A stretch of 64,000 bases of DNA from Prochlorococcus sp. AG-418-M08 (GTDB lineage Bacteria; Cyanobacteriota; Cyanobacteriia; PCC-6307; Cyanobiaceae): positions 62,001 to 126,000 of the forward strand of contig QCMG01000004.1 of assembly GCA_003213955.1 (NCBI GenBank), in the 5' to 3' direction. Position 1 is the stretch's first letter; each line of letters begins with the position of its first letter. A program made the position numbers and the translations under genes. Positions 8,738-62,614 of the stretch are shown here, piece after piece. The notes beneath the pieces are model-generated. The model saw only the letters and a list, made by a program, of their open reading frames with translations, made no database searches and had not been told where the DNA came from.

Positions 8738-10744
8738 CTATAAAATTGCTTTTGTCTTGTTTATAACATTTTCAACTGTAAATCCAAAATTAGTCATACA
8801 TTTACCCCCAGGAGCAGAAGCGCCAAATCTATCCATAGTAATACAAATCCCATCAAGTCCAGTATATTTGTGCCATCCGAACGAATGTGCAGCTTCAACC
8901 ACAACTCTCTTTTTGACACTACTAGGTAAAATACTTTCTTTGTAAGAATCTTCTTGCTCTTCAAATAGCTCCACGCACGGCATTGAAATAACTCTGGTTT
9001 TGGTACCTAATTTTGAGAGTTCTTTACTTGCTTCAATACAGAGGTTTAGTTCACTACCAGTACCGATAAATATTACATCAGGAGTTCCTGCACAATCAGA
9101 AACTATGTATCCACCTAATGCAACTTTTTCAATTGAGGTATTCTCTTGATTTGGCATGGCTTGTCTACTTAAGCAAAGAGAAGAAGGCCTTTTCCTGTTT
9201 TTAATAGCAATCTTGTAAGCGCCACTTGTTTCATTACCATCTCCAGGTCTAAAAACAAGCATATTTGGCATTGCCCGAAGAGAAGGGATAGTTTCCACCG
9301 GTTGATGTGTTGGGCCATCTTCGCCAACTCCAATTGAATCATGAGTTAATACATAAATAACTCCTAGCTCACTGAGAGCAGATAGTCTCATTGAACCTCG
9401 CATATAATCAGCGAAAACGAGAAAAGTTCCACCATAAGGTATAAGTCCACTATTGTGATAAGCAATTCCATTTAATATTGCTGCCATGGCATGTTCTCTA
9501 ACACCAAAATGCAAATATCTCTTTTCTGGAGAATGTGCCTGGAATGAGCCTATTTCTCCCTTTATATCTGTGTAATTAGAATGTGTTAAGTCTGCTGAAC
9601 CTCCAATTAATTCAGGAAGATTAGGTCCAAGAGCTCCTAGGCATATTTGAGAATGTTTTCTTGTCGCTAGACCTTTATCATCTGGGGTATATGAAGGTAA
9701 ATCTGAATCCCAGTTTTCTGGTAATTGACCTTGGATCATTCTTTTTAATTCTGCACCCTCAGAAGGATATAAGTTTTGATACTCCTGAAACTTCAAATTC
9801 CATTTTTTCTCAGAGTCTGTTCCTTTTGTAATAGCTTGTCTAAATTGAGTATATACTTCCTCGGGAATTTCAAAAGGAGGATATTCCCAATTTAAAAACT
9901 CTCTTGTTAAGGAAGCTTCTTCTTCACCTACTGCAGCTCCATGAATACCTGCAGTATCAGACTTATTTGGAGAACCATAGCCTATTGTTGTAGAAATTTT
10001 GATTAAAGAAGGTTTATCTTTTACAGATTTAGCATTTTCAATAGCTTTGGTTATTCCTTTTACATCATGATTTCCATCTTCAACATGTTGCACATGCCAT
10101 CCATATGCTTCATATCTCTTTGAAACGTCTTCTGTAAATGAAACATCTGTACGTCCATCAATGGTGATTTGATTATCATCATATAGAGCGATCAATTTTC
10201 CAAGTTTGAGATGTCCAGCAAGTGAACAAGCTTCAGATGCAATACCCTCTTGATTACATCCGTCACCCATAATGACGTAAGTATAATGATCAACAATTTC
10301 GCAATCTGGTTTATTAAATTTAGCAGCTAAGTGTGTTTCTGCGATTGCCAAACCAACTGCATTAGAAATTCCTGCTCCTAATGGTCCTGCTGTAACTTCA
10401 ACCCCCTCAGTTTCGAATGTTTCTGGATGTCCAGGTGTTTTGGATCCCCATTGTCTAAATTCTTTGATATCTTCGATGGAAACTGATTTGTATCCAGTCA
10501 GGTGTAATAGAGAATACAACAACATACATCCGTGGCCGGCAGATAATACAAACCTATCTCTATTAAACCAATTTGGATTATTGGGATTATGATTAAGAAC
10601 GTTGTGCCATAATGCATAACCCATTGGAGCGCAACCCATAGGTAATCCTGGATGCCCACTATTAGATTTATTTACTGCATCTACAGCCAGCATTCTTATA
10701 CTATTTACACATAGCGATTCTAATGAAACAGATGCAGCGACCAT
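8738..10744 (-). CDS. tkt: transketolase
   Basis: A 668-residue thiamine-diphosphate enzyme that moves two-carbon units between sugar phosphates in the Calvin cycle and pentose phosphate pathway. The TPP-binding motif MGDGCNQEG lies near residue 160. Substrate- and cofactor-binding segments include [38 protein letters not shown] and the [13 protein letters not shown] loop. The length matches full-size transketolases. It is the third gene of a minus-strand group acpP-fabF-tkt, 42 bp behind fabF, and converges on thiC, which makes a precursor of its cofactor. Confidence 0.97.
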
Positions 10745-29679: not shown

Positions 29680-31212
29680 TTATTTGATTTCAGTCTCCTT
29701 AGGTATCTTCTCATTATAAAGATCAATAATTTTATCCACTACCTCATTAATTGAATATCCATCAGTAATAATTTCTATTGCGTCATTCGCTTTTCTTAGA
29801 GGTGAAATTTCCCTATTGGAATCTTCAAAATCTCTTTTCTTTATAAGTTCTTTTAATGTATTAAGATCTATTTCTTGCGAGTCTTTACTACTTTTATCAG
29901 ATTTTCTTCTTTTTGCTCTTTCATCGATGCTAGCAGTTAAAAATATTTTAAGTTCTGCATGAGGAAAAACAGTAGTTCCTATATCTCTTCCCTCAGCTAC
30001 AAGTCCGCCTGATTCTCCAATTTTTCTTTGTTCTTTTACTAAGAATTTTCTTACTTTGTTTATTGAGGAAATTTTGGAAACGATGGAACTTATCTTTTGC
30101 GATCTAATTTCTTCAGTAACACAGTAGTTATTAATATAAACATCCTGTTTTGAATTTGTATTCGACTTGAAAACAATAGATATATCTTTAAGAATATCCT
30201 GTAATTTTTTTTCTTTTTTATAATCAATACTTTCTTTTATCAGAAGCCAACTTAATGCCCTGTACATTGCTCCAGTATCTAAATATAAAAGTTTAAGTTT
30301 CTTTGCTATTAACTTTGTTACCGTACTTTTACCTGAGCCTGCAGGACCATCAATTGCAATAATCGGCCTTCTTTTCATTAGAAAAACGTGATCAATTAAT
30401 CTTGTCTCTCCACATCTTATCGCACCAGCTAGTAACGAAATATTATCCTCAAGTCTTACTTTTTGTAGTGTATAAGGGTGTAAATGTTCTAAATATTCAA
30501 TTGAAATTTTTTTTGCTGATAGCTTTTTAATTATTTCGTTTAAATTGATCTTTTTTTCTTGTTGAAAAATTTTTTTTGCTTCTAATAACTCACTTGAAAA
30601 AAACCTAATCAATTGCCTTTCTTTTTTTGATAAATTTACATTACGCGAACTTAAAGGAATTCCATCAAAATCTCTTTGTGTAGGAATAGATTTAATAGCA
30701 ACATTTAATTTTTTTCTTAGGACAAGATTTTTTAAAATTAAAAGTTGTTGCCAATCTTTTTCTCCTAAGTAAAGATTTTTTGGCTTGATGAGACTTAGTA
30801 ATCTATAAACTACTGTACAAACGCCATCAAAGTGTCCAATTCGATTTAATCCGCATAATGCAGAAGATAATTCGATTGGAGCTTTTAGGAATTTAATATT
30901 TTTATTATTCGGAGGATATATATCTTCATTACTTGGGATGAAGATGGCATCTGCCCCATTTGAAAAGGAGATTTTTATATCATTATCAATTGTTTTAGGG
31001 TAATTCTCTAAATCTAATTTGTTATCAAATTGAAGTGGATTAATAAAAATACTTACTAAATTAACATTAGAGTTGTCATTTTTTGCTGTTGATATTAGTT
31101 TGATATGTCCATTGTGAAGATTACCCATTGTTGGAATGAAGTTAATATCATTATTTATATTTCTTCTCCAATTTTCTATTTCTTCAGTTTTTCTTATGAT
31201 TACTTTCTTCAC
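29680..31212 (-). CDS. panC/cmk: bifunctional pantothenate synthetase / cytidylate kinase
   Basis: A 510-residue fusion. Residues 1-275 are PanC (beta-alanine plus pantoate gives pantothenate): FIPTMGNLHNGHIKLI near the N-terminus carries the HxGH-type nucleotide motif, with FINPLQF and LYLGEKDWQQL further on. Residues from about 280 are cytidylate kinase, with the P-loop AIDGPAGSGKSTVT, LYLDTGAMYRAL and VAEGRDIGTTVFP. The fusion is characteristic of cyanobacteria. It is divergent from purM, with 98 bp between the starts. Confidence 0.96.
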   Translation of the reverse strand: MKKVIIRKTEEIENWRRNINNDINFIPTMGNLHNGHIKLISTAKNDNSNVNLVSIFINPLQFDNKLDLENYPKTIDNDIKISFSNGADAIFIPSNEDIYPPNNKNIKFLKAPIELSSALCGLNRIGHFDGVCTVVYRLLSLIKPKNLYLGEKDWQQLLILKNLVLRKKLNVAIKSIPTQRDFDGIPLSSRNVNLSKKERQLIRFFSSELLEAKKIFQQEKKINLNEIIKKLSAKKISIEYLEHLHPYTLQKVRLEDNISLLAGAIRCGETRLIDHVFLMKRRPIIAIDGPAGSGKSTVTKLIAKKLKLLYLDTGAMYRALSWLLIKESIDYKKEKKLQDILKDISIVFKSNTNSKQDVYINNYCVTEEIRSQKISSIVSKISSINKVRKFLVKEQRKIGESGGLVAEGRDIGTTVFPHAELKIFLTASIDERAKRRKSDKSSKDSQEIDLNTLKELIKKRDFEDSNREISPLRKANDAIEIITDGYSINEVVDKIIDLYNEKIPKETEIK

Positions 31213-32495: not shown

Positions 32496-33131
32496 ATGCC
32501 CTTTGAAAATAATCAAAGAATTACACGTAGACGTAGTTCAGCTGGACCTACACCTCCTAAAAGACCATTAGGTAATAATTCAGATTTTAATGGGCGCCAA
32601 AATCAAGGCCCTAGACCAACTTTTCTAACTTTAAGAGATCATGGAAAGGTTTTTGTAGCTGATTTGCCTAATTTATCTGATGGACAATTATCTCATATAA
32701 GTAAAGAAGCTAATGAGGTTTTAAATAGTCTCGAGAAAAGGTTAAGCGATCTCGAAAATGAACCAAATTCTACAAATCCTGAAAATGATACTCTCATAAA
32801 AGCCTCTACTAAAAGAGATGTTACGCTTAGATTTATAAAATCAATTGAAGAAGAACAAGATCATAGAAAGAATAATCCTGCCTTAAGAGATGCTGCTTCT
32901 GAATCATTACCAAGAACTTTTCTTGAGGTTGCAAGACATAGATTACCTGGTGCAACTTTTGACTCTCTTTTGAGAGAAGCCTTAGAGGCCTGTGCGGTAG
33001 ATGAGGATCCTAAGAAAAGTGAAGTAATTGATGAGCCTAAAGAAACTGTAAAAATTATGGATATTCCATCTGCAAGCACTAATCCTTCTCTAGTTGTTAG
33101 TATCGATACAGGTAAAAATAGTGAAACCTAA
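32496..33131 (+). CDS. conserved hypothetical protein of picocyanobacteria
   Basis: A 211-residue soluble protein with no family that I recognise. The first 45 residues are basic, Pro- and Asn-rich and probably disordered (RRRSSAGPTPPKRPLG). A helical region (about 60-125) follows, with coiled-coil-like spacing (LSHISKEANEVLNSLEKRLSDLE). After that comes a second conserved-looking segment (RTFLEVARHRLPGATFDSLLREALEACAVDE). The C-terminus is acidic. Its TAA shares one base with the ATG of the next small gene. Confidence 0.7.
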   Translation: MPFENNQRITRRRSSAGPTPPKRPLGNNSDFNGRQNQGPRPTFLTLRDHGKVFVADLPNLSDGQLSHISKEANEVLNSLEKRLSDLENEPNSTNPENDTLIKASTKRDVTLRFIKSIEEEQDHRKNNPALRDAASESLPRTFLEVARHRLPGATFDSLLREALEACAVDEDPKKSEVIDEPKETVKIMDIPSASTNPSLVVSIDTGKNSET

Positions 33132-33402: not shown

Positions 33403-34188
33403 ATGGAATCGCTTATTATCATCCCAGCAAGGAGTGGATCTACTAGAGTACCTAATAAGAATTTAGCTGTAATTAATGGCAAACCTCTAATTTATTATTC
33501 TATAAAGGCCTCGTTAAAAACAGATGCTTCACAGGTAATAGTTAGTACTGACTCAAACGAAATTGCGGATATATCAAAAAGTTTTGGTGCAGAAGTTCCT
33601 TTTCTTCGCCCTAGATCTTTATCTCATTCAACAAGTTCTTCAATTAGTGTAATAATTCATACTCTTCTAAAATTAATTGAAAATAAAAATCAAATACCAG
33701 AAGTAATTATTTTTAAGCCACCAACTAATCCTTTTTTGAGTGGGAATTCAATTCAAGAAATGCTTAACTTTAAGTTAAGTAATCGTAATATAGATTCTTT
33801 AATGAGTATTCATATTCCAAAAATAAGTGCTTTAAGTTTTCTTTCTTTTTCAAATGAAAGTAAAAAAATAAAAACTCAAATATACGACATTAATGGTGTG
33901 AGATTATATGATATTGAAAGGAGTCAAGATAGGCCAATATCTTATGCAAGTTCACCTGCATGCAAAATAACAGAATCAAGATATTTCTTAGAAAAATATA
34001 TTGATAAAAAAATAGCTCTTGAAAAATGCGCTGGCCCAACTTTTAATTATGAGAATTCAAGTGGATATTTAATAGATAGTTTAGAAGCTCATGATATAGA
34101 TAATATTGCTGATTTTGAGTTAGCTAAATTAATTATAGAAAATGGAAAAAAGCTTATTAATGGTTCAAAGTTTTCTCATTTACATTAA
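33403..34188 (+). CDS. acylneuraminate-type cytidylyltransferase (CMP-sugar synthetase, NeuA-like)
   Basis: 261 residues of the CMP-NeuNAc/CMP-Kdo synthetase superfamily, which couples CTP to the anomeric hydroxyl of 3-deoxy-ulosonic acids. The nucleotide-binding signature IIIPARSGSTRVPNKNL is at residues 5-21. VSTDSNEIADI lies near 48, the KPPTNPFLS segment (QPTSPLR-type) near 103, and the metal-binding tail HDIDNIADFELA near 227-238. All catalytic motifs look intact, so it is probably active. It is the first gene of the accessory island. Its acyl-sugar substrate is unknown, and no NeuB-type synthase is present here. Confidence 0.85.
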   Translation: MESLIIIPARSGSTRVPNKNLAVINGKPLIYYSIKASLKTDASQVIVSTDSNEIADISKSFGAEVPFLRPRSLSHSTSSSISVIIHTLLKLIENKNQIPEVIIFKPPTNPFLSGNSIQEMLNFKLSNRNIDSLMSIHIPKISALSFLSFSNESKKIKTQIYDINGVRLYDIERSQDRPISYASSPACKITESRYFLEKYIDKKIALEKCAGPTFNYENSSGYLIDSLEAHDIDNIADFELAKLIIENGKKLINGSKFSHLH

Positions 34189-34489
34189 TTATGAGAATTG
34201 AATTAATGCAAATTTTTCAAATCAATCTATCTAAGTCCTGGCCATAATTTAAGAACGTTTACTTTTTGAATCATGGATTTTTATAGTTAAGGTTGATTTA
34301 TAATTTTATTCTTATTCAAACACTTTTATCCTAAAAATTATTGTTATTTTCCACGAAATTTTATTTAAATTTATGATCAACCTGATATTTAATATTTAAT
34401 TACAACTAATTTTCAAAAAGTGTTATATGTTTAATTAACATACAAAAATAATAAAAATAATATTTTATGGCTTTAGTTTTATTTTAAAT
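34189..34489. other. A+T-rich spacer inside the island
   Basis: About 300 bp between the cytidylyltransferase and the glycosyltransferase. An 18-codon ORF starts at 34191. No tRNA, repeat or clear hairpin was seen. The rest of the island genes that follow are closely packed, so a promoter for them may lie here. Confidence 0.4.
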
Positions 34490-35854
34490 ATGGATAAATT
34501 ATGCTCAATAATCATAAGAACTAAGAACGAAGAGCAATGGATAAGTAAATGCTTAGAGGCTGTTTTTGGTCAATCTTATAAAAATATCGAAGTAATAATC
34601 GTAGATAATTGTTCTACAGATACAACTATCAAAAGAGCCGAGGAGTTTCCTGTTAAAATTTTAAATATTAAAAAATTTGTCCCGGGTAGAGCCATAAACT
34701 TAGGGATTAATTCCTCAAATGGAGAATATATTTGTTGTTTAAGTGCACATTGCATTCCTACAAACAATCTATGGTTAGAAAATCTCCTTAGACCGTTATC
34801 CGATAAATCAATAGCAGGAACATATGGACGACAAGAGCCTACACCAAACAGTAGTGATATTGATAAACGAGATTTGCTTTTGGTTTTTGGACTAGATAGT
34901 TACATACAATATAAAGATTCTTTTTTTCATAATGCTAATAGTGCTTTTAGAAAAGAAGTATGGGAGAAATATCCATTTTGTGATAATGCAACGAATATTG
35001 AAGATAGAATTTGGGGGGAAGAAGTTATTAAAAATGGATATAAAATTGCATATATTGCCGAATCAAGTGTTTTTCATTGGCACGGAATTCATCATGAATT
35101 AAATCCGGAAAGAGCTAAAAATATAGTTAAAATTTTGGATAAGATTCCAAGACTAAATAGTTATAACAATGAAAAATTTAATATTTTAAGAAAAAATCAT
35201 TGTTGTTATTGTGTAATCCCTATTAAGTCAGTGGATATCAATCTTAAAAATATAAAATTGATTCGTACAACCATAAATTGTTTAAAGAAAAGTAAATTAA
35301 TAAAAAAAATAGTAATTTCTACTGATTATGAAAAAGATTTTTCAATAGTAGAGGATCCAAAAATTGAAATTATTAAAAGACCTCATAATCTTTCAGATAG
35401 AGAATCTTCACTCGAAGATGTCTTAAAATATACTTTAGAAAAGATAGAGTCTACTGGAGAGTTTTGTGATTCAATCTCAGTAGCAGAGATCATCTATCCT
35501 TTTAGAGATATTGAAGTAGTAGATGAGATGATTAAAATAATTTTTGATGAGTCAATTGATACTGTTTTTGCTAGCTGGAAAGAATCAAGAGCAACTTGGT
35601 TCGGAGAAAATGATGAATTAAGAATGCTAGGTGGAAGCTCTTGGACTATTCCATCACAAAAAAGATTTGGACAAACCATTACTTCTTTGATTGGATATTT
35701 CACTGTAACAAAACCAAAAAATGTCAGAAATAAAACTGTTTTTGAAGGAAATATTAAAGCGCATCTTTTAAAAAATAGGAATAACACAATTGTTTGTAGA
35801 AATAACATCGAATATAATGATCTCTGTAATCAACTAAACCAAAAATTAATTTAA
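34490..35854 (+). CDS. family 2 glycosyltransferase fused to a degenerate cytidylyltransferase-like domain
   Basis: 454 residues in two parts. Residues 1 to about 240 are a GT-A family 2 transferase: IIIRTKNEEQWISKCLEAVFGQSYKNIEVIIVDNCSTD, an AHCIPTNNLWLENLL segment in place of a classic DXD line, YGRQEPTP, and the acceptor-side motif NIEDRIWGEEVIKNG followed by FHWHGIHHE. Residues about 250-454 resemble a CMP-acylneuraminate synthetase (YCVIPIKSVDINLKNIKLI; VISTDYEKDF; IIYPFRDIEVVDEMI), but the ARxGSKR nucleotide loop has become IKSVDI. It probably transfers a sugar onto a surface glycan. The second domain may bind substrate without catalysis. Confidence 0.82.
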   Translation: MDKLCSIIIRTKNEEQWISKCLEAVFGQSYKNIEVIIVDNCSTDTTIKRAEEFPVKILNIKKFVPGRAINLGINSSNGEYICCLSAHCIPTNNLWLENLLRPLSDKSIAGTYGRQEPTPNSSDIDKRDLLLVFGLDSYIQYKDSFFHNANSAFRKEVWEKYPFCDNATNIEDRIWGEEVIKNGYKIAYIAESSVFHWHGIHHELNPERAKNIVKILDKIPRLNSYNNEKFNILRKNHCCYCVIPIKSVDINLKNIKLIRTTINCLKKSKLIKKIVISTDYEKDFSIVEDPKIEIIKRPHNLSDRESSLEDVLKYTLEKIESTGEFCDSISVAEIIYPFRDIEVVDEMIKIIFDESIDTVFASWKESRATWFGENDELRMLGGSSWTIPSQKRFGQTITSLIGYFTVTKPKNVRNKTVFEGNIKAHLLKNRNNTIVCRNNIEYNDLCNQLNQKLI

Positions 35855-35870
35855 TAAGGAATTAGATTAA

Positions 35871-36917
35871 ATGAAAATATGTATTTTAGGTTTAGGAAGA
35901 GTTTTTCAACATTATGAAAAAAACTTCATACATGATTTACTTATAAATAATCATAAAATATATGTTTTTGATTCAGAAGTAAAAAAACTTGATTCTCTTA
36001 GGAAAGAATATAATTATTTTAAATTGTCATCTATAGATCAATTAATTAAGGAAAAAATAGATATTGGTATAGTATCAACTCCATCTGGTACTCATTATGA
36101 AATCGCAAAATTACTTTTAGAAAATGGAATTAATGTTTTGACTGAAAAGCCACCAGCTATGAATGAAAAAGAATTAAAAGAATTGATAAATTTAGCTAAT
36201 AATAAATATCTAAAATATGGAGTCATTTTTCAAAATAGACTAAATTCATCAATGCAGATCGCAAAGGAAATTATAAGTAGAGAACTATTAGGTCAAATAA
36301 AAGTTTGCTCAATTAAATTACACTGGTGTAGAGAACAAGAATATTATGACGATGAATGGCACGGTACTTGGAGACAAGATGGCGGTGTTATTAATCAGCA
36401 AGCGATTCATCATATAGATGCTATGCAATGGCTTAACGGCCCATTACTTAGGGTCTCTGCATATTCTGGTAATCTTATAAATAATTTGGAAGCAGAGGAT
36501 ACCATGATCGGATTAGTTAAATTTAAAAATGAATCTTTAGGTACTATCGAAGCAACTACGGCAATTAGACCGAAAGATAAGGAAGCTTCAATTTTTTTAG
36601 CAGGAACTAAAGGGTACCTGAAAGTAGGAGGTATTGCTCTAAACTTAATTGAAGATTTTAGTTTAAATTGTGAAGATAAACTTTTTTTAGAAAGATTAAA
36701 TAATGCTTCTAAAAATGTAGAAACGGGATATGGGACATCTCATAAAAGGGTCATAAAAGACTTTATTAATGCCGTTACAGATAATTATGAACCTTGCATA
36801 ACTGCCACCTCAACAATAAATACTGTAAGGGCTATAAATGCTTTGTATATGAGTTGTGAATCAAAGCAATGGGCTGATGTAGATGAAAACTCAATTTCAT
36901 CTTATCTAGGGAAATAA
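35871..36917 (+). CDS. Gfo/Idh/MocA-family NAD(P)-dependent sugar dehydrogenase
   Basis: 348 residues. The N-terminal Rossmann domain opens ICILGLGRVFQ and contains the family's catalytic EKP motif in VLTEKPPAM (about 92-100). The C-terminal substrate domain has DGGVINQQAIHHIDAMQWL (about 167-185), the pattern seen in nucleotide-sugar and cyclitol dehydrogenases. Members oxidise or reduce sugars, inositols or UDP-sugars; the substrate is not evident. It starts 16 bp after the glycosyltransferase, and its stop overlaps the start of the DAHP-synthase-like gene by one base. Confidence 0.85.
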   Translation: MKICILGLGRVFQHYEKNFIHDLLINNHKIYVFDSEVKKLDSLRKEYNYFKLSSIDQLIKEKIDIGIVSTPSGTHYEIAKLLLENGINVLTEKPPAMNEKELKELINLANNKYLKYGVIFQNRLNSSMQIAKEIISRELLGQIKVCSIKLHWCREQEYYDDEWHGTWRQDGGVINQQAIHHIDAMQWLNGPLLRVSAYSGNLINNLEAEDTMIGLVKFKNESLGTIEATTAIRPKDKEASIFLAGTKGYLKVGGIALNLIEDFSLNCEDKLFLERLNNASKNVETGYGTSHKRVIKDFINAVTDNYEPCITATSTINTVRAINALYMSCESKQWADVDENSISSYLGK

Positions 36918-37804
36918 TGGATAACAGTAATCCTGGAAAAGATATATCTTCAGAGGATATAAAATCAAAATTTCCTTTAAGTGCGAAAAAAAATGATAAT
37001 CATTTTTCTGAATTCTTAATATCTGGAGTAAAATTTGGCCCAGCTAATTGTCCGATATTTGCAGGCCCAAATATGGTTGAATCTGAGGAACTTATTAAAG
37101 ATATTGCTATAAATGTAAAAGAAAGAGGTGCATCATTTCTAAGAGGGGGCGCCTTTAAACCACTTACATTTCCATATCGCTCCGAAAAGTATAACGAAAC
37201 TAGAGAGAAAGGAATTGAATGGATGCAAGCAGCAAGTTATTCTGCTGGGATACCTATAATTACAGAAATAATGGAAGAGAAATATATCCCATTAGTTAGT
37301 GAAGTATCGGACATTATTCAAATAGGAACAAGAAATATGCAAAATTATCCACTTTTAACTGCATGCGCGAGAACTAAAAAGCCAATTATGTTAAAAAGAG
37401 GTTTTGGATGTTCATTAAGAGATTGGCTTGGTGCCGCAGAGTATATTCTGGTTGAAGGTAATGAAAGAGTGATTCTTTGTGAAAGAGGAATTGTTGCACC
37501 TCATACACATAGGTCTTCTTCAAGATTTTTGCTTGATTTGCAAGTTGTTCCAGCAGCACAGGAAATAACTCATTTGCCTATTGTGACAGATCCCTCTCAT
37601 GCCTGTTTTTGGAGGCCTTGGGTACCAAATCTTGCAAAAGCCTGCGTTGCCGTTGGTTCTAATGGTTTAATGATGGAGGTTCATCCAAATCCAAGTGAGG
37701 CAGCAGTTGATCCTTTACAAGCTATTGATTATGAAACCTTTGGAAATCTTGTTGTTCAATTAAAAGCTATTGGAAAAGCTTGTAATATAAAAGTAGGTGA
37801 TTAA
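36917..37804 (+). CDS. DAHP-synthase-like (class I-beta) PEP-dependent aldol synthase, diverged
   Basis: 295 residues of the DAHP/KDO8P synthase fold, which condenses PEP with a sugar aldehyde to a 3-deoxy-ulosonate. Landmarks are FAGPNMVESEEL (48-59), FLRGGAFKPLTFPY (74-87), QIGTRNMQNYPLL, IMLKRGFG, VILCERGI, IVTDPSHACFW and MMEVHPNPSEAAVDP. Two changes stand out. The metal-binding Cys of GPC(S/A)xES is Asn52, as in metal-independent KDO8P synthases. The Arg of KPR(T/S), which contacts the erythrose-4-phosphate phosphate, is Leu83. The other metal-site His, Glu and Asp remain. It may use another acceptor aldehyde. It sits between two dehydrogenase genes in the island. Confidence 0.85.
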   Translation: MDNSNPGKDISSEDIKSKFPLSAKKNDNHFSEFLISGVKFGPANCPIFAGPNMVESEELIKDIAINVKERGASFLRGGAFKPLTFPYRSEKYNETREKGIEWMQAASYSAGIPIITEIMEEKYIPLVSEVSDIIQIGTRNMQNYPLLTACARTKKPIMLKRGFGCSLRDWLGAAEYILVEGNERVILCERGIVAPHTHRSSSRFLLDLQVVPAAQEITHLPIVTDPSHACFWRPWVPNLAKACVAVGSNGLMMEVHPNPSEAAVDPLQAIDYETFGNLVVQLKAIGKACNIKVGD

Positions 37805-37811
37805 ATAAAAG

Positions 37812-38660
37812 ATGTATTCATTAATAATTGGCCTTTCTCCAAGTAAGGGTGCAAGATCTCCAATATTGTGGAATAGAGCTTTCAAAAAATATAATATTAA
37901 TTGTTTAATGAGCCCTTTAGATATTCCATCGATAGAAGATTTAAAAAATAATATTCAAAGATTGAAGGAGGATAATCTTTTTTTGGGTGGAAGTGTTACT
38001 TTCCCTTATAAAGAATTAGTAGCAGAAATATTATTTAAGAATTTAGAAAATGAAGCGACTAAGAAAATAAATTCAGTAAATTCTTTATATCGTAATGAAT
38101 CTGGAGAGTTATGCGCTGGTAATACAGATGGAATGGCCGCACTCAATTGTATTGAAAAAAAATTTTTTATGAACTTTAAGCAACCAACTAAAATTCTGGT
38201 TTTAGGAGGAGGCGGGGTAGGTAAAGCAGTCATATCATTCTTACATGATCAATTTCTAATTGAAAAGAAAAATATTCAGTTATTTAATTCTTCACGAAAA
38301 AAAAATATAAGTTTTGAATCTAAATTTAATAATTGTAAATTTGTAGAATGGGGAGAAAGAAATAAAGTTGTTGATTCTTCTACATTAATTGTTAATTGCA
38401 CTTCGATGGGAGATTATGAAAATATTGATCTTATTCCATTGGATATTCGAGAAATTATAAAAGATAAGTATCCTTTTGGAATTTATGATGTTATTTATAA
38501 TCCTTTGAAAAGTAAACTCATTAAATTTGCAGAAGAAAATAATATAATATACGAAAATGGATTAGAGATGAACCTTCTTCAAGCAGCCATAGCATTTAAA
38601 TTAGCGACTAGAATTTCAGACAGTATTGAGGATATTAGTTTAGTTATGTCTAAAGATTAA
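37812..38660 (+). CDS. shikimate dehydrogenase-like oxidoreductase (AroE/quinate DH family), diverged
   Basis: 282 residues with the two-domain AroE layout. The catalytic Lys and Asp are kept (GGSVTFPYKE; AGNTDGMAAL), as is the SVN segment. The dinucleotide loop is VLGGGGVGKAV (about 135-145), followed later by NCTSMGDY, IYDVIYNPLKS and the C-terminal ENGLEMNLLQAAIAF. The N-terminal SxSPxxH substrate motif reads ARSPILW, so the first Ser and the His are replaced, and the N of NVT is Ser. This suggests a related but different polyol or cyclitol substrate. It is 7 bp behind the DAHP-synthase-like gene. Confidence 0.82.
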   Translation: MYSLIIGLSPSKGARSPILWNRAFKKYNINCLMSPLDIPSIEDLKNNIQRLKEDNLFLGGSVTFPYKELVAEILFKNLENEATKKINSVNSLYRNESGELCAGNTDGMAALNCIEKKFFMNFKQPTKILVLGGGGVGKAVISFLHDQFLIEKKNIQLFNSSRKKNISFESKFNNCKFVEWGERNKVVDSSTLIVNCTSMGDYENIDLIPLDIREIIKDKYPFGIYDVIYNPLKSKLIKFAEENNIIYENGLEMNLLQAAIAFKLATRISDSIEDISLVMSKD

Positions 38661-38709
38661 TTTTAAAATAAATTTCCTAAATCTATATAAAAAAATAATA
38701 AACCAACCA

Positions 38710-39561
38710 ATGAATACTCTTTTTACGTATGCAAATATTTGTCCACTATGCAATCAAGAGAAGATTTCTCTGATTTGTAGTCCCAGAATCGAAAAAGATA
38801 TCTATTTTCAAAAATTAAATATCAGAAATGAAAAAAAAGTTTATTCAGGTTGGTATTTCTGCAAAAGTTGTGAAGGCGCATTTAACAACATTCGTTTAAC
38901 AAATAAAGGCATGTTAAAAATGTATTCTTCTTCAATCACATCAATGGATAATAAAAATGCTTTAGAGAGATTTAAAACTATTTCAGAATTAAATAAAAAC
39001 GAATCAGAGACTTTTCTGAAATCAAATTGGTTTGTATCTAATTCGAGTGTTTTTAATTCAAAAAATTTAAATTTTTTAGATTTTGGCTGTGGTATGGGAA
39101 TTTTTCAATGGTATTTAAAAAATTATTTTTCAAAAACAAAACTTTTTGCATATGGCATTGATCCTTCTAAAGATTATATTGAGTGCTGCAAAAAAAAAAT
39201 TAAGGGAAAATTCATGTGTGGTTCAGATGAAAAATTAAATTTTTTTTCTGATTCCTTTTTTGATTTAATTAGTTCAATAACAGTATTAGAACATTTGTTA
39301 GATCCTTATTTAAACTTGGTTAATTTAAGAAAAAAACTCTCGACTAATGGAGAGCTTTGGATAGAAGTTCCTAGTATAAAGAATTTTGAAATACTTTCAG
39401 CTGATCATGATAATTTTCGATGCCAACATCTTTTTATGCATTCTGAAAATTCAATTGAAAAACTTTTATCAAAAGTAGGTTTCGTTATCAAAGAATTTTC
39501 TCATAAAAAATCAATTAGAGGAAAATTTATGTTGAAACTTATCGCAAAAACTAAAAATTAA
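38710..39561 (+). CDS. SAM-dependent methyltransferase with N-terminal zinc ribbon
   Basis: 283 residues. Two CxxC pairs, CPLCNQ near residue 15 and CKSCEG near residue 52, make a zinc ribbon like that of sugar C-methyltransferases. The class I methyltransferase domain starts near 118 with FLDFGCGMGIFQ, continues with GIDPSKDYIECC, and has the post-I motif FDLISSITVLEHLLDP (about 190). In surface-polysaccharide clusters such enzymes methylate a nucleotide-linked or ulosonate sugar. The substrate here is unknown. It is the last island gene, 49 bp behind the AroE-like gene. Confidence 0.8.
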   Translation: MNTLFTYANICPLCNQEKISLICSPRIEKDIYFQKLNIRNEKKVYSGWYFCKSCEGAFNNIRLTNKGMLKMYSSSITSMDNKNALERFKTISELNKNESETFLKSNWFVSNSSVFNSKNLNFLDFGCGMGIFQWYLKNYFSKTKLFAYGIDPSKDYIECCKKKIKGKFMCGSDEKLNFFSDSFFDLISSITVLEHLLDPYLNLVNLRKKLSTNGELWIEVPSIKNFEILSADHDNFRCQHLFMHSENSIEKLLSKVGFVIKEFSHKKSIRGKFMLKLIAKTKN

Positions 39562-39918
39562 TTTTTTAAATAATAAGATTTATAATCATTAAATTATCAA
39601 ATTATAAAAAATTAAAAGATTTCTTTAAAAAAACTATTAAGTTTCTCTTATCAATATTGATACATTTTTGAATTAAATTCTTAACTAATATTTGAAATCA
39701 AATTTAAAACATTTTTTTGTAAAAGGGAAAATAATCTTTGTTCAGTAGATGACATAATAAAATAAATATAAATATTATAAAATCAAAAAATTTGGTCAAA
39801 TTGCGGACTACTTGCAGACCAAAGATTTTAGTAAATTTTCCCTATCAAATGTATAAGAGGTACACAAAACTAAAGTTTTTAGAAAGGTTTATAGGCAATT
39901 TAGTAACTAATTTGAAAA
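39562..39918. other. A+T-rich stretch at the right edge of the island
   Basis: About 357 bp between the methyltransferase and tRNA-Cys. It is nearly all A and T in its first 200 bases. In-frame codons of the LpxB-like gene run back into it from the right, but this is antisense to the tRNA and not credible coding. I see no integrase, no copy of the tRNA 3' end and no transposon end. Confidence 0.4.
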
Positions 39919-39989
39919 AGGCGGCACCCAGATTCGAACTGGGGATAAAGGATTTGCAATCCTCTGCCTTACCACTTGGCCATGCCGCC
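39919..39989 (-). tRNA. tRNA-Cys (anticodon GCA)
   Basis: A 71-base cloverleaf on the minus strand. Acceptor GGCGGCA pairs perfectly with TGCCGCC and the discriminator is U, as in tRNA-Cys. The anticodon loop TTGCAAA sits on the stem AGGAT/ATCCT, and the T arm is CCCAG TTCGAAT CTGGG. No CCA is encoded. Its 3' end faces the accessory island, the usual orientation when a tRNA serves as an integration site. Confidence 0.96.
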
Positions 39990-40031
39990 GATAGAGACTC
40001 ATTTGAATCATTTAATGATCTTAACAGCAAC

Positions 40032-41261
40032 GTGCCTCATTCACTATTAATTATATCTAATGGCCATGGAGAAGATGTTATTGCTTTAGAAATAATAAAA
40101 CGACTTTTAAAAAAAATAAAAATAAAAACCATTGAGGTTATGCCTTTGGTCGGTAATGGTAATATCTTTGATTCCATAAAGTCGAAGAATTTTCATAAAA
40201 TTGGTCATCTTAAAAATCTACCAAGCGGTGGTTTTAGTAATCAAAGTTTGAAAGGTTTTTTACTTGATTTTTTTTCAGGATTTTTAGTTGATATTTTTAA
40301 AAATTTTTTAATTGTAATAGGTAAATCAAAAAATAATTATAAAATTATTGCTGTTGGCGATTTTTTACCTTTATTTTTTGCGTGGAGCTCAAAATGTGAA
40401 TTTGCTTTCGTAGGCATGCCAAAAAGTGATCATACTTGGAGCAATGGACCAGGATGGGAGTTTAGTGATTTTTATCATAAATTGAAAGGCTCAGAATGGG
40501 ATCCTTGGGAAATGTTTCTTATGAAATCTGGAAGATGCAAAAGTTTAATAATGCGAGACGAAATAACAGCAAATAATCTAAATAAAAAATTGATAAATGC
40601 AAAATATTTAGGTAATCCAATGATGGATTTTGTCCATCAGAAAAATGAAAATATTTCTAATATTATTATGTTTTACAGAATAATTATATTAATTGGTAGT
40701 AGATTTCCTGAAGCACTAAATAACCTTGATCGCTTTTTAGATTCTTTAAATCAACTTAATTTACCAAAAGATTTGATTATTCTTTTGCCTTTAAGTATGA
40801 ATGCAAATATATTACAAATTAAAAGTCGTTTTAAAAAACATGGTTATTTAGAAGATAAGAGTTGTCATTTTATGGTAGGGGAAGATTCGGTTTGGAAAAA
40901 AAAAGATAAGTATATTTTGTTAGGCAAAAATACATTTAATTTATGGGCAAACATGGCTACTGTTGGTTTATCAAATGCAGGAACTGCTACGGAACAAATT
41001 GCTGGACTTGGTGTTCCTTCTTTATCTCTTCCTGGTAATGGGCCCCAATTCACAAAATCATTCGCAAATAGACAATCTAGGTTATTGGGAGGAGGTGTTT
41101 TAGTTTGTCAAAATAAAAAAATTCTTTTGCATAATTTAGAAATGCTTTTAAATGATAGACAATGTAGATTAAATCAAGTAAAAGTTGGCATGAAAAGAAT
41201 GGGCAAAAGTGGTGCTAGTAAGAAAATTGTAGATTATTTGAATTTAAATTTGTTATCTTGA
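40032..41261 (+). CDS. LpxB-related glycosyltransferase (lipid-A-disaccharide synthase-like protein)
   Basis: About 409 residues with the GT-B features of the LpxB-related family: LLIISNGHGEDVIA at the N-terminus, VGNGNIFDS, the GDFLPLFFAW segment, and the C-terminal nucleotide-sugar site VGLSNAGTATEQIAGLGVPSLSLPGNGPQF (about 310-340). Cyanobacteria carry this paralogue in addition to LpxB itself; its acceptor is unknown. The open frame continues upstream to 39792, but that part is antisense to tRNA-Cys. The GTG at 40032 (VPHSLLIISNG) just after the tRNA 5' end is the best start. It precedes a small conserved gene by about 36 bp. Confidence 0.8.
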   Translation: MPHSLLIISNGHGEDVIALEIIKRLLKKIKIKTIEVMPLVGNGNIFDSIKSKNFHKIGHLKNLPSGGFSNQSLKGFLLDFFSGFLVDIFKNFLIVIGKSKNNYKIIAVGDFLPLFFAWSSKCEFAFVGMPKSDHTWSNGPGWEFSDFYHKLKGSEWDPWEMFLMKSGRCKSLIMRDEITANNLNKKLINAKYLGNPMMDFVHQKNENISNIIMFYRIIILIGSRFPEALNNLDRFLDSLNQLNLPKDLIILLPLSMNANILQIKSRFKKHGYLEDKSCHFMVGEDSVWKKKDKYILLGKNTFNLWANMATVGLSNAGTATEQIAGLGVPSLSLPGNGPQFTKSFANRQSRLLGGGVLVCQNKKILLHNLEMLLNDRQCRLNQVKVGMKRMGKSGASKKIVDYLNLNLLS

Positions 41262-61108: not shown

Positions 61109-62614
61109 ATGTCTAAGAGTGAAATTGTTGTAGTTGGTGCTGGAATAGCAGGATTAACTTCTGCAGCAATTTTATCAAAACTAGGCTTTTCGGTGACTTT
61201 GATTGAATCACACACTCAATCAGGAGGCTGTGCAGGAACCTTCAAAAGAAAGAAATATATCTTTGATGTAGGAGCTACACAAGTTGCAGGTTTGGAAGAA
61301 GGGGGAATACACTTTAAAATTTTTAAATTTCTAGAAATTCCTCTTCCAGAAGCCTCTATTTTAAACCCAGCTTGTATTGTTGATTTGAATGATGGAAGTA
61401 AGCCAATACCTATTTGGTATGATAAAAATAAGTGGATTAAAGAAAGGGAGACTCAGTTCCCAGGTAGTAGTAACTTTTGGAAAATATGTAATTTAATTCA
61501 TAAGAGTAATTGGACTTTCGCTAATAAAAACCCTGTATTACCAATAAAAAATCTGTGGGATTTTTCACAACTCTTTAAAGCATTAGATCCTACAAATTTA
61601 GCAACAGGACTATTACTTAAATCTACTATTTTTGATCTTTTAGGTATTTGTGGATTATCTAAAGATCATAGATTAATTAACTTTCTTAATTTGCAATTAA
61701 AGCTTTATTCTCAAGAAGATGTTTATAAAACAGCAGCTCTTTATGGTTCTACAGTATTACAGATTTCTCAACAACCACATGGCCTATGGCATTTTAAAAA
61801 ATCGATGCAGGTCCTAAGTGAGGCTTTAGAAGATTCATTAAAAAAAACAGGAGTTAATATTGTTTTCGGGCAAAAAGTAAATTCTATAAATTTTGATGAT
61901 GTAAAAAATAGTTGGAAAGTTTGTGCAATATCTAAGCAAGAGAATTTAGAATACTACGCTAAAGATGTAATTTATACTCCTCCACCCCAATGTCTCCTAA
62001 AACATCTAGGAAACTCTCTTGATAGTAATCGTGATTATAAGAATAGAATAGAAAGTCTTCCTGATCCAAGTGGTGCTTTGGTCTTTTATTCGGCTTTAAG
62101 AAAAGAACATATTAATTCACAATCTTCGAATCATTATCAATTTGTTTCTAATGAATTAGGATCGCTTTTTGTATCCATAAGTGAGGATGGAGATGGTAGG
62201 GCCCCAATAGGAGAGATTACATTGATAGCAAGTCTTTTTACAAAAACGAATGACTGGTTTAATTTAGAAAAACTTGAATATAATAAGAAAAAAAAGGATT
62301 ATCTTCAAAAAATATCATTTGCATTAGAAAATCAATTTGATATAGCTTCTGAAAATTGGCTTCACAAGGAATTGGCTACCCCACTAGGATTTGAAAGATG
62401 GACTAATAGGCCAAATGGGATAGTGGGAGGTCTAGGCCAAAGTCCTGATGTTTTTGGTTTGTTTGGTTTGCCCAGTAGAACTCCTTTTAAAGGATTGTGG
62501 TTATGTGGGGATTCTATTTACCCAGGTGAGGGCACAGCAGGTGTTAGTCAGTCCGCATTGATGGTTTCAAGGCAAATTTTAGCTTCTAGAGGAATAAATG
62601 ACTTTAACTTATAA
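61109..62614 (+). CDS. carotenoid desaturase/isomerase-family flavoprotein (CrtD-like)
   Basis: A 501-residue FAD-dependent oxidoreductase of the phytoene desaturase superfamily. The N-terminal dinucleotide fold reads VVVGAGIAGLTSAAILSKLGFSVTLIES, with SGGCAGTFKRKKYIFDVGATQVAGLE behind it. The C-terminal FAD motif is GLWLCGDSIYPGEGTAGVSQSAL. The GATQVAGLE stretch and length suit CrtD (C-3',4' desaturase) better than CrtISO, but the substrate in an organism of this kind is unclear. Its last 11 bp overlap the end of tyrA, which runs the other way. Confidence 0.78.
   Translation: MSKSEIVVVGAGIAGLTSAAILSKLGFSVTLIESHTQSGGCAGTFKRKKYIFDVGATQVAGLEEGGIHFKIFKFLEIPLPEASILNPACIVDLNDGSKPIPIWYDKNKWIKERETQFPGSSNFWKICNLIHKSNWTFANKNPVLPIKNLWDFSQLFKALDPTNLATGLLLKSTIFDLLGICGLSKDHRLINFLNLQLKLYSQEDVYKTAALYGSTVLQISQQPHGLWHFKKSMQVLSEALEDSLKKTGVNIVFGQKVNSINFDDVKNSWKVCAISKQENLEYYAKDVIYTPPPQCLLKHLGNSLDSNRDYKNRIESLPDPSGALVFYSALRKEHINSQSSNHYQFVSNELGSLFVSISEDGDGRAPIGEITLIASLFTKTNDWFNLEKLEYNKKKKDYLQKISFALENQFDIASENWLHKELATPLGFERWTNRPNGIVGGLGQSPDVFGLFGLPSRTPFKGLWLCGDSIYPGEGTAGVSQSALMVSRQILASRGINDFNL

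Follow-up and report, generated by a model that had tools for sequence, protein, structure and literature searches.

What might be made by a gene cluster that sets a 3-deoxy-D-arabino-heptulosonate 7-phosphate (DAHP) synthase-like protein among nucleotide-sugar genes? The question is raised by positions 33403–39561 of a 64,000-nucleotide window (the whole stretch of DNA analysed, positions 62,001–126,000 of the forward strand of contig QCMG01000004.1) from Prochlorococcus sp. AG-418-M08. An earlier reading of the letters alone, called here the sequence-only reading, had placed six same-strand genes in this island, and the listing of open reading frames (ORFs) contains all six at those coordinates on the + strand: a cytidine monophosphate (CMP)-sugar synthetase, a glycosyltransferase family 2 (GT2) fusion protein, a Gfo/Idh/MocA dehydrogenase, the DAHP synthase-like protein (this and its homologues are termed DAHPS-N), an AroE-like dehydrogenase and a methyltransferase. 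On balance, family and residue comparisons favour a horizontally spread gene set that would both make and use a CMP-activated 3-deoxy-2-ulosonic acid of an unusual kind, destined for a surface glycan. The earlier interpretation, which pointed to such a product, is partly supported, being right in outline and needing the corrections given below.

DAHPS-N was found in 20 loci, 10 of them cyanobacterial (Cyanobiaceae) and 10 alphaproteobacterial. Close homologues are present in three of 266 genomes of the source genus, in nine of 400 genomes sampled from the larger set for the family, and in five of 385 sampled, again from a larger set, for the class of one alphaproteobacterial carrier, that carrier included. 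A further 32 matches in the source genus are weak (21–31% identity), and seven of eight of these, sampled for a tree with cyanobacterial 3-deoxy-D-manno-octulosonate 8-phosphate (KDO8P) synthases, fall with the KDO8P synthases. A scan of genome contigs, which took the best 80 of 594 candidates and so gives a lower bound for members outside the cyanobacteria, returned DAHPS-N in at least six alphaproteobacterial loci at 48–67% identity.

The synthetase, Gfo/Idh, DAHPS-N and AroE-like genes occur together in 17 of the 20 loci; taken singly, the AroE-like gene is present in 19, and the synthetase and a clear Gfo match in 18 each. Only the 10 cyanobacterial loci went into the neighbour profiles, so that the 10 from alphaproteobacteria lie outside them. 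At 74 control loci from the contig scan that carry a canonical type Ibeta DAHP synthase, on stretches that are on average shorter (3.8–16.8 kb, median 13.1 kb), neither the synthetase nor the Gfo gene was found (0/74 each) and an AroE relative was found at 10. The co-occurrence of these four genes exceeds chance. The sequence-only reading had suggested looking elsewhere for the DAHPS-like and AroE-like pair beside CMP-sugar synthetases, and the pair does recur in other genomes.

An all-against-all comparison of neighbours at the first 16 loci gave five families present in 13–16 loci and no other in more than four, the fifth recurrent family being the GT2 protein with a synthetase-like domain. 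No phosphatase family and no cyclase recurs among these neighbours, and dehydroquinate synthase, dehydratase, kinase and aminotransferase families are each absent from all but four loci at most. The aminoshikimate partner enzymes, whose absence from the island had already been remarked upon from the sequence, are thus no recurrent part of the 16 loci, and reading of the window neighbours between 27.7 and 45 kb showed no cyclase, aminotransferase, kinase or dehydratase of the kind that belongs to the aminoshikimate (3-amino-5-hydroxybenzoate) pathway. A cyclitol or aminoshikimate product was set aside for want of a recurrent cyclase, which weakens the cyclitol alternative that the sequence-only reading had offered.

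The DAHPS-N gene (36917–37804, + strand) encodes a protein with a conserved N-terminal extension and neither an ACT nor a chorismate mutase domain. It scores 302.1 bits against NF006421 (cut-off 335), 94.3 bits against the KDO8P synthase model TIGR01362 (cut-off 314) and 20.9 bits against Pfam NeuB (cut-off 22.1), passing none of these, and has no match to the SAF domain. In a tree of 16 DAHPS-N, 30 canonical DAHP synthase and eight KDO8P synthase sequences, DAHPS-N forms a single clade (support 100/99) on a long stem and the KDO8P synthases stand apart (100/100); support for the grouping of the canonical DAHP synthases is just 41/28. DAHPS-N thus has one origin. Within its clade, alphaproteobacterial and cyanobacterial members interleave (supports 88/87 and 91/93), which makes transfer between the two groups likely, if not firm.

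Residues were compared between the 16 DAHPS-N proteins and 88 canonical enzymes, with four further DAHPS-N members added. The comparison excludes locus L015, which matches at 21%, the 88 do not include L013, whose canonical sequence is partial, and the genes of L068, which is rich in guanine and cytosine, were read by hand for both neighbour and residue counts. R76, K81, K160, R190, H228, E254 and D265 are common to DAHPS-N and the canonical enzymes, and the His, Glu and Asp of the metal site are kept. The position of the metal-binding Cys is occupied by Asn in 20/20 DAHPS-N members versus Cys in 88/88 canonical enzymes; in the island protein this is Asn52, whose codon, AAT at 37070–37072 (+), was checked. 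The KPRTS motif of DAHP synthase is replaced by KPLTF (37157–37171, +), with Leu83 and Phe85 in all 20 members, which read KPL[TS]F; the canonical enzymes have Arg (88/88) and Ser (∼ 99%). A loop at His196-Thr-His198 (37502–37510, +) is rewritten in every member from a canonical Arg (99%) and, usually, Phe (82%), and the canonical S/C-D-G loop has become V-D-P. His196 in place of Arg is fixed in DAHPS-N, as are Phe231 and Pro266, each in place of Gly. We take the shared residues to be those that bind phosphoenolpyruvate (PEP) and metal, and the changed ones to be those that bind metal and the aldehyde. DAHPS-N therefore resembles type Ibeta DAHP synthase (TIGR01361) in origin, fold and PEP site and differs from it in the Cys-to-Asn change, the KPRTS replacement and the two other rewritten loops, as well as in being encoded with CMP-sugar genes, the canonical enzyme being encoded separately.

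Because Asn replaces the metal-binding Cys, DAHPS-N is probably metal-free. Excerpts of PMC3052366 describe this Asn as absolutely required in metal-independent KDO8P synthases, and add a requirement for changes in the vicinity of the metal-binding Asp; both types of change named there are present in DAHPS-N. According to excerpts of PMC6435475, every DAHP synthase characterised shares a divalent metal site. The residue comparison was checked on KDO8P synthases of Prochlorococcus, of which two (L042, L044) have Asn and three (L033, L036, L039) Cys at this position. The Asn (metal-independent) and Cys (metal) types of KDO8P synthase thus both occur within one genus. Loss of the KPRTS Arg, together with the lack of a recurrent phosphatase, suggests that the aldehyde is probably other than erythrose 4-phosphate and perhaps carries no phosphate. 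The KANRS motif of KDO8P synthase is absent, KPLTF standing in its place. The KANRS positions are presumably Asn57 and Arg58 of the enzyme in PMC6650799. That source has these residues contacting one phosphate of a bound inhibitor; its table label for that phosphate conflicts with its text, and the role given here to KPRTS is a presumed one. No clear published passage on contacts to the phosphate of erythrose 4-phosphate was found in the literature searched.

The ratio of nonsynonymous to synonymous change (pN/pS) between the source genome (G000) and G175 is 0.10–0.27 for the five genes of the set (0.126 for DAHPS-N), and 0.181 and 0.268 for the two flanking genes. All five genes are under purifying selection, and DAHPS-N is therefore not a decaying copy in the source genome. 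Among the proteins set side by side for the first three carriers, it is also the best conserved.

The AroE-like gene (37812–38660, +) encodes a protein compared here with shikimate dehydrogenase. Set against 15 AroE sequences, the 16 AroE-like proteins all retain Lys67, Asn90, Asp106 and Gln257; they share with shikimate dehydrogenase its fold and its catalytic Lys, Asp, Asn and Gln. They differ in the residues on the carboxylate side: the first Ser of the Ser-x-Ser site, to which we assign a carboxylate-site role in AroE, is Ala in 14 proteins (Ala14 in the island) and Pro in two, and Arg15 is new and invariant, with Tyr changed to Met33 and Leu to Asn254. Three further members agree, each with the catalytic Lys and Asp (3/3). 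The island protein falls below every listed NCBIfam AroE cut-off, the best score being 127.1 bits (cut-off 252).

The closest solved relatives of the Gfo/Idh/MocA protein (35871–36917, +; assigned by Pfam) are 3q2i (1.1e-56) and 3q2k, listed just as a dehydrogenase and an oxidoreductase, followed by the glucuronide-3-dehydrogenase 8tdi; YjhC (6o15) is a weaker relative (4.7e-13). We take 3q2i and 3q2k to be WlbA, the 3-dehydrogenase of UDP-N-acetylglucosaminuronic acid. Oxidation of C3 of this sugar by WbpB/WlbA is described in excerpts of PMC10622841, and those of PMC7315737 have YjhC handling forms of N-acetylneuraminic acid via keto, presumably 4-keto, intermediates. WlbA/WbpB and YjhC are thus Gfo/Idh/MocA enzymes that act on carboxylated pyranoses, and these nearest relatives suggest that the island enzyme oxidises a ring hydroxyl on a carboxylate-bearing sugar. 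The earlier proposal that it supplies the aldehyde finds no support. The set differs from the WlbA pathway in that the aminotransferase and acetyltransferase partners of WlbA belong to no family found in more than four of the 16 loci. A bradyrhizose-like inositol sugar was also considered, because a Gfo enzyme is present; excerpts of PMC4743980 describe the bradyrhizose genes as unknown save for an 11-gene candidate cluster, and DAHP and shikimate are not mentioned in those excerpts. By our reckoning shikimate C3, uronate C3 and ulosonate C4 would all lie two carbons from the carboxyl-bearing ring carbon.

The first gene of the island (33403–34188, +) encodes a predicted CMP-sugar (3-deoxy-ulosonate) synthetase of the NeuA/PseF/KdsB superfamily. 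Pfam CTP_transf_3 matches it at 86.4 bits (cut-off 22.6), and its N-terminal motif IPARSGSTRVPNKN and nucleotide loop are intact in the translation. It does not pass the NCBIfam PseF model TIGR03584 (118.6 bits, cut-off 205.7); its best PDB match is the NeuA structure 9ftb, followed by KdsB. The next gene (34490–35854, +) encodes a GT2 domain (about residues 1–230; Pfam 92.5 bits) and, from about residue 237 (base 35198), a degenerate CMP-ulosonate-synthetase-like domain. Pfam and NCBIfam bear out the family assignments of the sequence-only reading throughout the island, except that its second cytidylyltransferase-like domain is a weak match, at 22.3 bits against the CTP_transf_3 cut-off of 22.6 (residues 251–318). 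The GSxxxxxKN nucleotide loop is missing from 10/10 aligned fusions. The AlphaFold model of the fusion is of moderate quality (mean predicted local distance difference test score (pLDDT) 78.3, predicted template modelling score 0.53, poor at residues 364–402). Foldseek placed GT2 polymerases (synthases) first; 9ftc, a CMP-Pse5Ac7Ac synthetase, took ranks 37 and 39 (E 4e-11; template modelling score 0.60–0.64 by target length), a match that, to judge from the Pfam hit, presumably covers the C-terminal half. In Thalassobaculum (L068) the GT2 and the synthetase-like domain are separate neighbouring genes, which supports the view that the fusion consists of two interacting parts. Also at L068 (from a cultured carrier, Thalassobaculum fulvum KCTC 42651), a stand-alone SAF-domain protein (9787–10311; 22.4 bits, cut-off 21) is encoded between the AroE-like and GT2 genes; since SAF is also the C-terminal domain of NeuB, this protein may partner DAHPS-N.

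Within 34490–38660 the successive genes are first 16 bp apart, then overlap by 1 bp and then stand 7 bp apart, in agreement with the earlier statement that no gap there exceeds 16 bp; the synthetase gene lies upstream of the glycosyltransferase gene across a gap of 301 bp. The island is a 6.9 kb insertion between two flanking genes, next to a tRNA-Cys gene (39919–39989, − strand) at its downstream edge. The flanking genes, at 32496–33131 (+) and 40035–41261 (+; a homologue of a conserved cyanobacterial protein), served to locate the empty site in the nine related genomes that have both on one contig (G006, in which the left gene is a fragment, and G003, with its flanks on two contigs, were left out). 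The flank-to-flank distance is 397–815 bp in seven of the nine and 1.3 and 3.1 kb in the other two. The same tRNA-Cys adjoins the gene set in L047, L061 and L062, which makes three genera counting the source genus, and a tRNA-Gly adjoins it in L058 and L060. A more distant tRNA is within the fetched stretch at L059 (tRNA-Ala) and L064 (tRNA-Arg), and none is within that around the gene set at L048 and L063. The sixth gene of the island (38710–39561, +; Pfam Methyltransf_23) recurs in only three of the 16 loci. It was therefore rejected as a core gene and is regarded as accessory cargo, a correction to the sequence-only reading, which had included methylation.

The source genome (1.66 Mb, 29 contigs) encodes two proteins matching PF00793, a canonical DAHP synthase on contig C9 (308.5 bits) and the island protein (168.4 bits), and two matching PF08501, a canonical AroE on C9 (96.1 bits) and the island protein (41.2 bits). 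The sequence-only reading had itself allowed that the island genes might simply be the housekeeping copies; with separate canonical enzymes present, that explanation was rejected. A full-length second PF00793 protein is present in eight of the nine other cyanobacterial carriers, the ninth (G611, 51% complete) having a fragment only, and another PF00793 protein, which may be a DAHP synthase or a KDO8P synthase, in five of six alphaproteobacterial carriers. In G364, a broken second copy of DAHPS-N (L059:7378–8036, an ORF of 172 amino acids and a further fragment) lies beside the intact one.

The same reading had noted that neither NeuB nor KdsA is present. This is so for the island, and for KdsA in the whole source genome, where PF00793, which also catches KdsA, matches only the canonical DAHP synthase and DAHPS-N. 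A NeuB is, however, encoded elsewhere (C3:33890–34579), with a second cytidylyltransferase 1.5 kb away (C3:36054–36539; locus L164), and this pair forms a second nonulosonic acid locus in the genome. Since NeuB has its own cytidylyltransferase on another contig, the island would be an additional pathway and not a stand-in for NeuB; the NeuB- or KdsA-like role suggested for DAHPS-N is plausible in itself, its differences lying where metal and aldehyde bind.

The substrate, product and order of steps that we infer would be as follows. DAHPS-N, judged by its family and residues, would join PEP to an aldose to give a 3-deoxy-ulosonate. The Gfo/Idh and AroE-like enzymes would oxidise and/or reduce a ring hydroxyl of this product or of a precursor. 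Both enzymes have relatives whose target is the hydroxyl two carbons away from the ring carbon with the carboxyl group, which in a 3-deoxy-ulosonate would be that at C4. The NeuA-type enzyme (33403–34188) would then make the CMP-sugar, and the GT2 protein, aided by its fused or partner synthetase-like domain, would transfer the sugar. Such a pathway would resemble that of metal-independent KDO8P synthase (KdsA) and KdsB in its PEP-dependent synthase of the same superfamily, its CMP-ulosonate synthetase partner, and a metal site that retains three ligands but has Asn instead of the Cys. It would differ in that DAHPS-N lies outside the KDO8P synthase clade, lacks KANRS, has no phosphatase beside it and is paired with two dehydrogenases. 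With the NeuB, PseI and LegI pathways it would share a PEP-dependent synthase without need for a phosphorylated aldose (as proposed for DAHPS-N) and a NeuA/PseF-type synthetase followed by a glycosyltransferase; it differs in that DAHPS-N is not NeuB by profile and has no SAF domain, and in its two extra dehydrogenases. At two loci the neighbours offer possible hints to the aldose substrate: at L172 (3150–5354, in G740) the neighbours of DAHPS-N include a SIS-domain (isomerase-like) and a transaldolase-family protein, and at L048 a SIS protein and a HAD phosphatase lie near the gene set.

The kind of chemistry proposed, CMP-ulosonate synthesis, is known, and what would be new is a synthase of separate origin. 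If the proposal is correct, nature would have repeated in the DAHPS-N clade the switch from metal-dependent to metal-free catalysis that has been studied in KDO8P synthase, and two shikimate-pathway enzymes would have been drawn together into making surface glycans in Prochlorococcus and relatives of SAR11. Both are among the most abundant marine bacteria, and their surface sugars are of importance for grazing and for recognition by phages. A bolder version, which we advance tentatively and think rather unlikely, is that the DAHP synthase superfamily gave rise to sugar-acid synthases three times independently, as KdsA, as NeuB and as DAHPS-N: a type Ibeta enzyme, having lost its need for metal through the Cys-to-Asn change also seen in KDO8P synthase, would feed a new class of CMP-ulosonic acids, and one dehydrogenase would oxidise and the other reduce C4, to give a C4-epimer or a 4-keto sugar that the aldol step alone cannot make. 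No published description of the gene set was found in the open-licence PubMed Central literature, which was searched without supplements or preprints.

Several observations weigh against the proposed pathway. DAHPS-N passes the NCBIfam DAHP synthase model TIGR01361 (269.9 bits, cut-off 267.75) and its fold best matches DAHP synthase (top Foldseek match 1vs1, 43% identity), and hence it may still make DAHP. The fixed residue changes arose once, in one clade, and are not 20 independent observations, and the roles given to the KPRTS residues are partly presumed. The AlphaFold model of DAHPS-N (mean pLDDT 84.8) falls below 50 in both rewritten loops (residues 81–88 and 194–203). The gene set is incomplete at L172, where DAHPS-N is accompanied by only a weak Gfo match on a nearly whole contig of 31 kb, at L068, with no Gfo gene within 8 kb, and at L063, with no synthetase on a contig that ends 0.9 kb past DAHPS-N. 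In one alphaproteobacterial carrier (G618, locus L070) no other PF00793 protein was found and DAHPS-N could be its only one; alternatively, a type II enzyme or an incomplete genome may account for this. A general phosphatase elsewhere in the genome could also serve, in which case the aldose may carry a phosphate.

The alternative that survives best, itself unlikely in our estimate, is that unusual chemistry leads to an ordinary product, the set making a known sugar acid (3-deoxy-D-manno-octulosonic acid (Kdo), 3-deoxy-D-glycero-D-galacto-nonulosonic acid (Kdn) or a DAH-type (3-deoxy-arabino-heptulosonate) heptulosonate) through a different synthase. The synthetase does resemble PseF, NeuA and KdsB, and with no KdsA found in the source genome the set could conceivably replace it in making Kdo. 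Against such a product stand the missing KANRS motif, KDO8P synthase models far below cut-off and the want of a recurrent phosphatase; moreover, the two extra dehydrogenases would be left without a role. We give still less credence to the suggestion that DAHPS-N is a divergent second DAHP synthase and the AroE-like protein a second shikimate dehydrogenase, the two serving an aromatic or aminoshikimate-type side pathway that lies in a glycan locus by chance. The 2-bit pass of TIGR01361, best fold and sequence matches to DAHP synthase, and the retained catalytic Lys and Asp of AroE speak for this explanation, but the metal Cys and KPRTS are lost in 20/20 members, the AroE-like protein is far below the listed NCBIfam cut-offs with its carboxylate-side Ser changed, the other enzymes of an aromatic route (dehydroquinate synthase, dehydratase, kinase and aminotransferase) are each confined to four of 16 loci at most, and a CMP-sugar synthetase is the constant companion of DAHPS-N. 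That DAHPS-N is a dead or regulatory remnant, the other genes making an ordinary nonulosonate with the NeuB encoded elsewhere, is very improbable: the lost metal ligand and the NeuB in the same genome speak for it, but the PEP-side residues are invariant, pN/pS is as low as that of the flanking genes, DAHPS-N is the best conserved of the compared proteins in the first three carriers, and NeuB has a cytidylyltransferase of its own.

A phage or plasmid origin of DAHPS-N was rejected. The single-protein query gave no match among viral contigs, and the DAHPS-N alignment found 12 viral-contig loci that are distant (34–43% identity) and keep Cys at the metal position (12/12); matches in phage and plasmid records are all below 60% identity. 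One phage record with annotated KdsA and KdsB, Synechococcus phage S-SCSM2R (PQ898602.1:212611–213312), contains a weak match (24.9% identity). Just past the island, the listed ORF 39792–41261 starts antisense to the tRNA-Cys (its peptide includes RFELGIKDLQSSALPLGHAA), and translation probably begins at a later position; this peptide is also found beside tRNA-Cys in L047, L061 and L062. Upstream of the island, the ORF at 29680–31212 resembles, on reading of its translation, PanC fused to cytidylate kinase.

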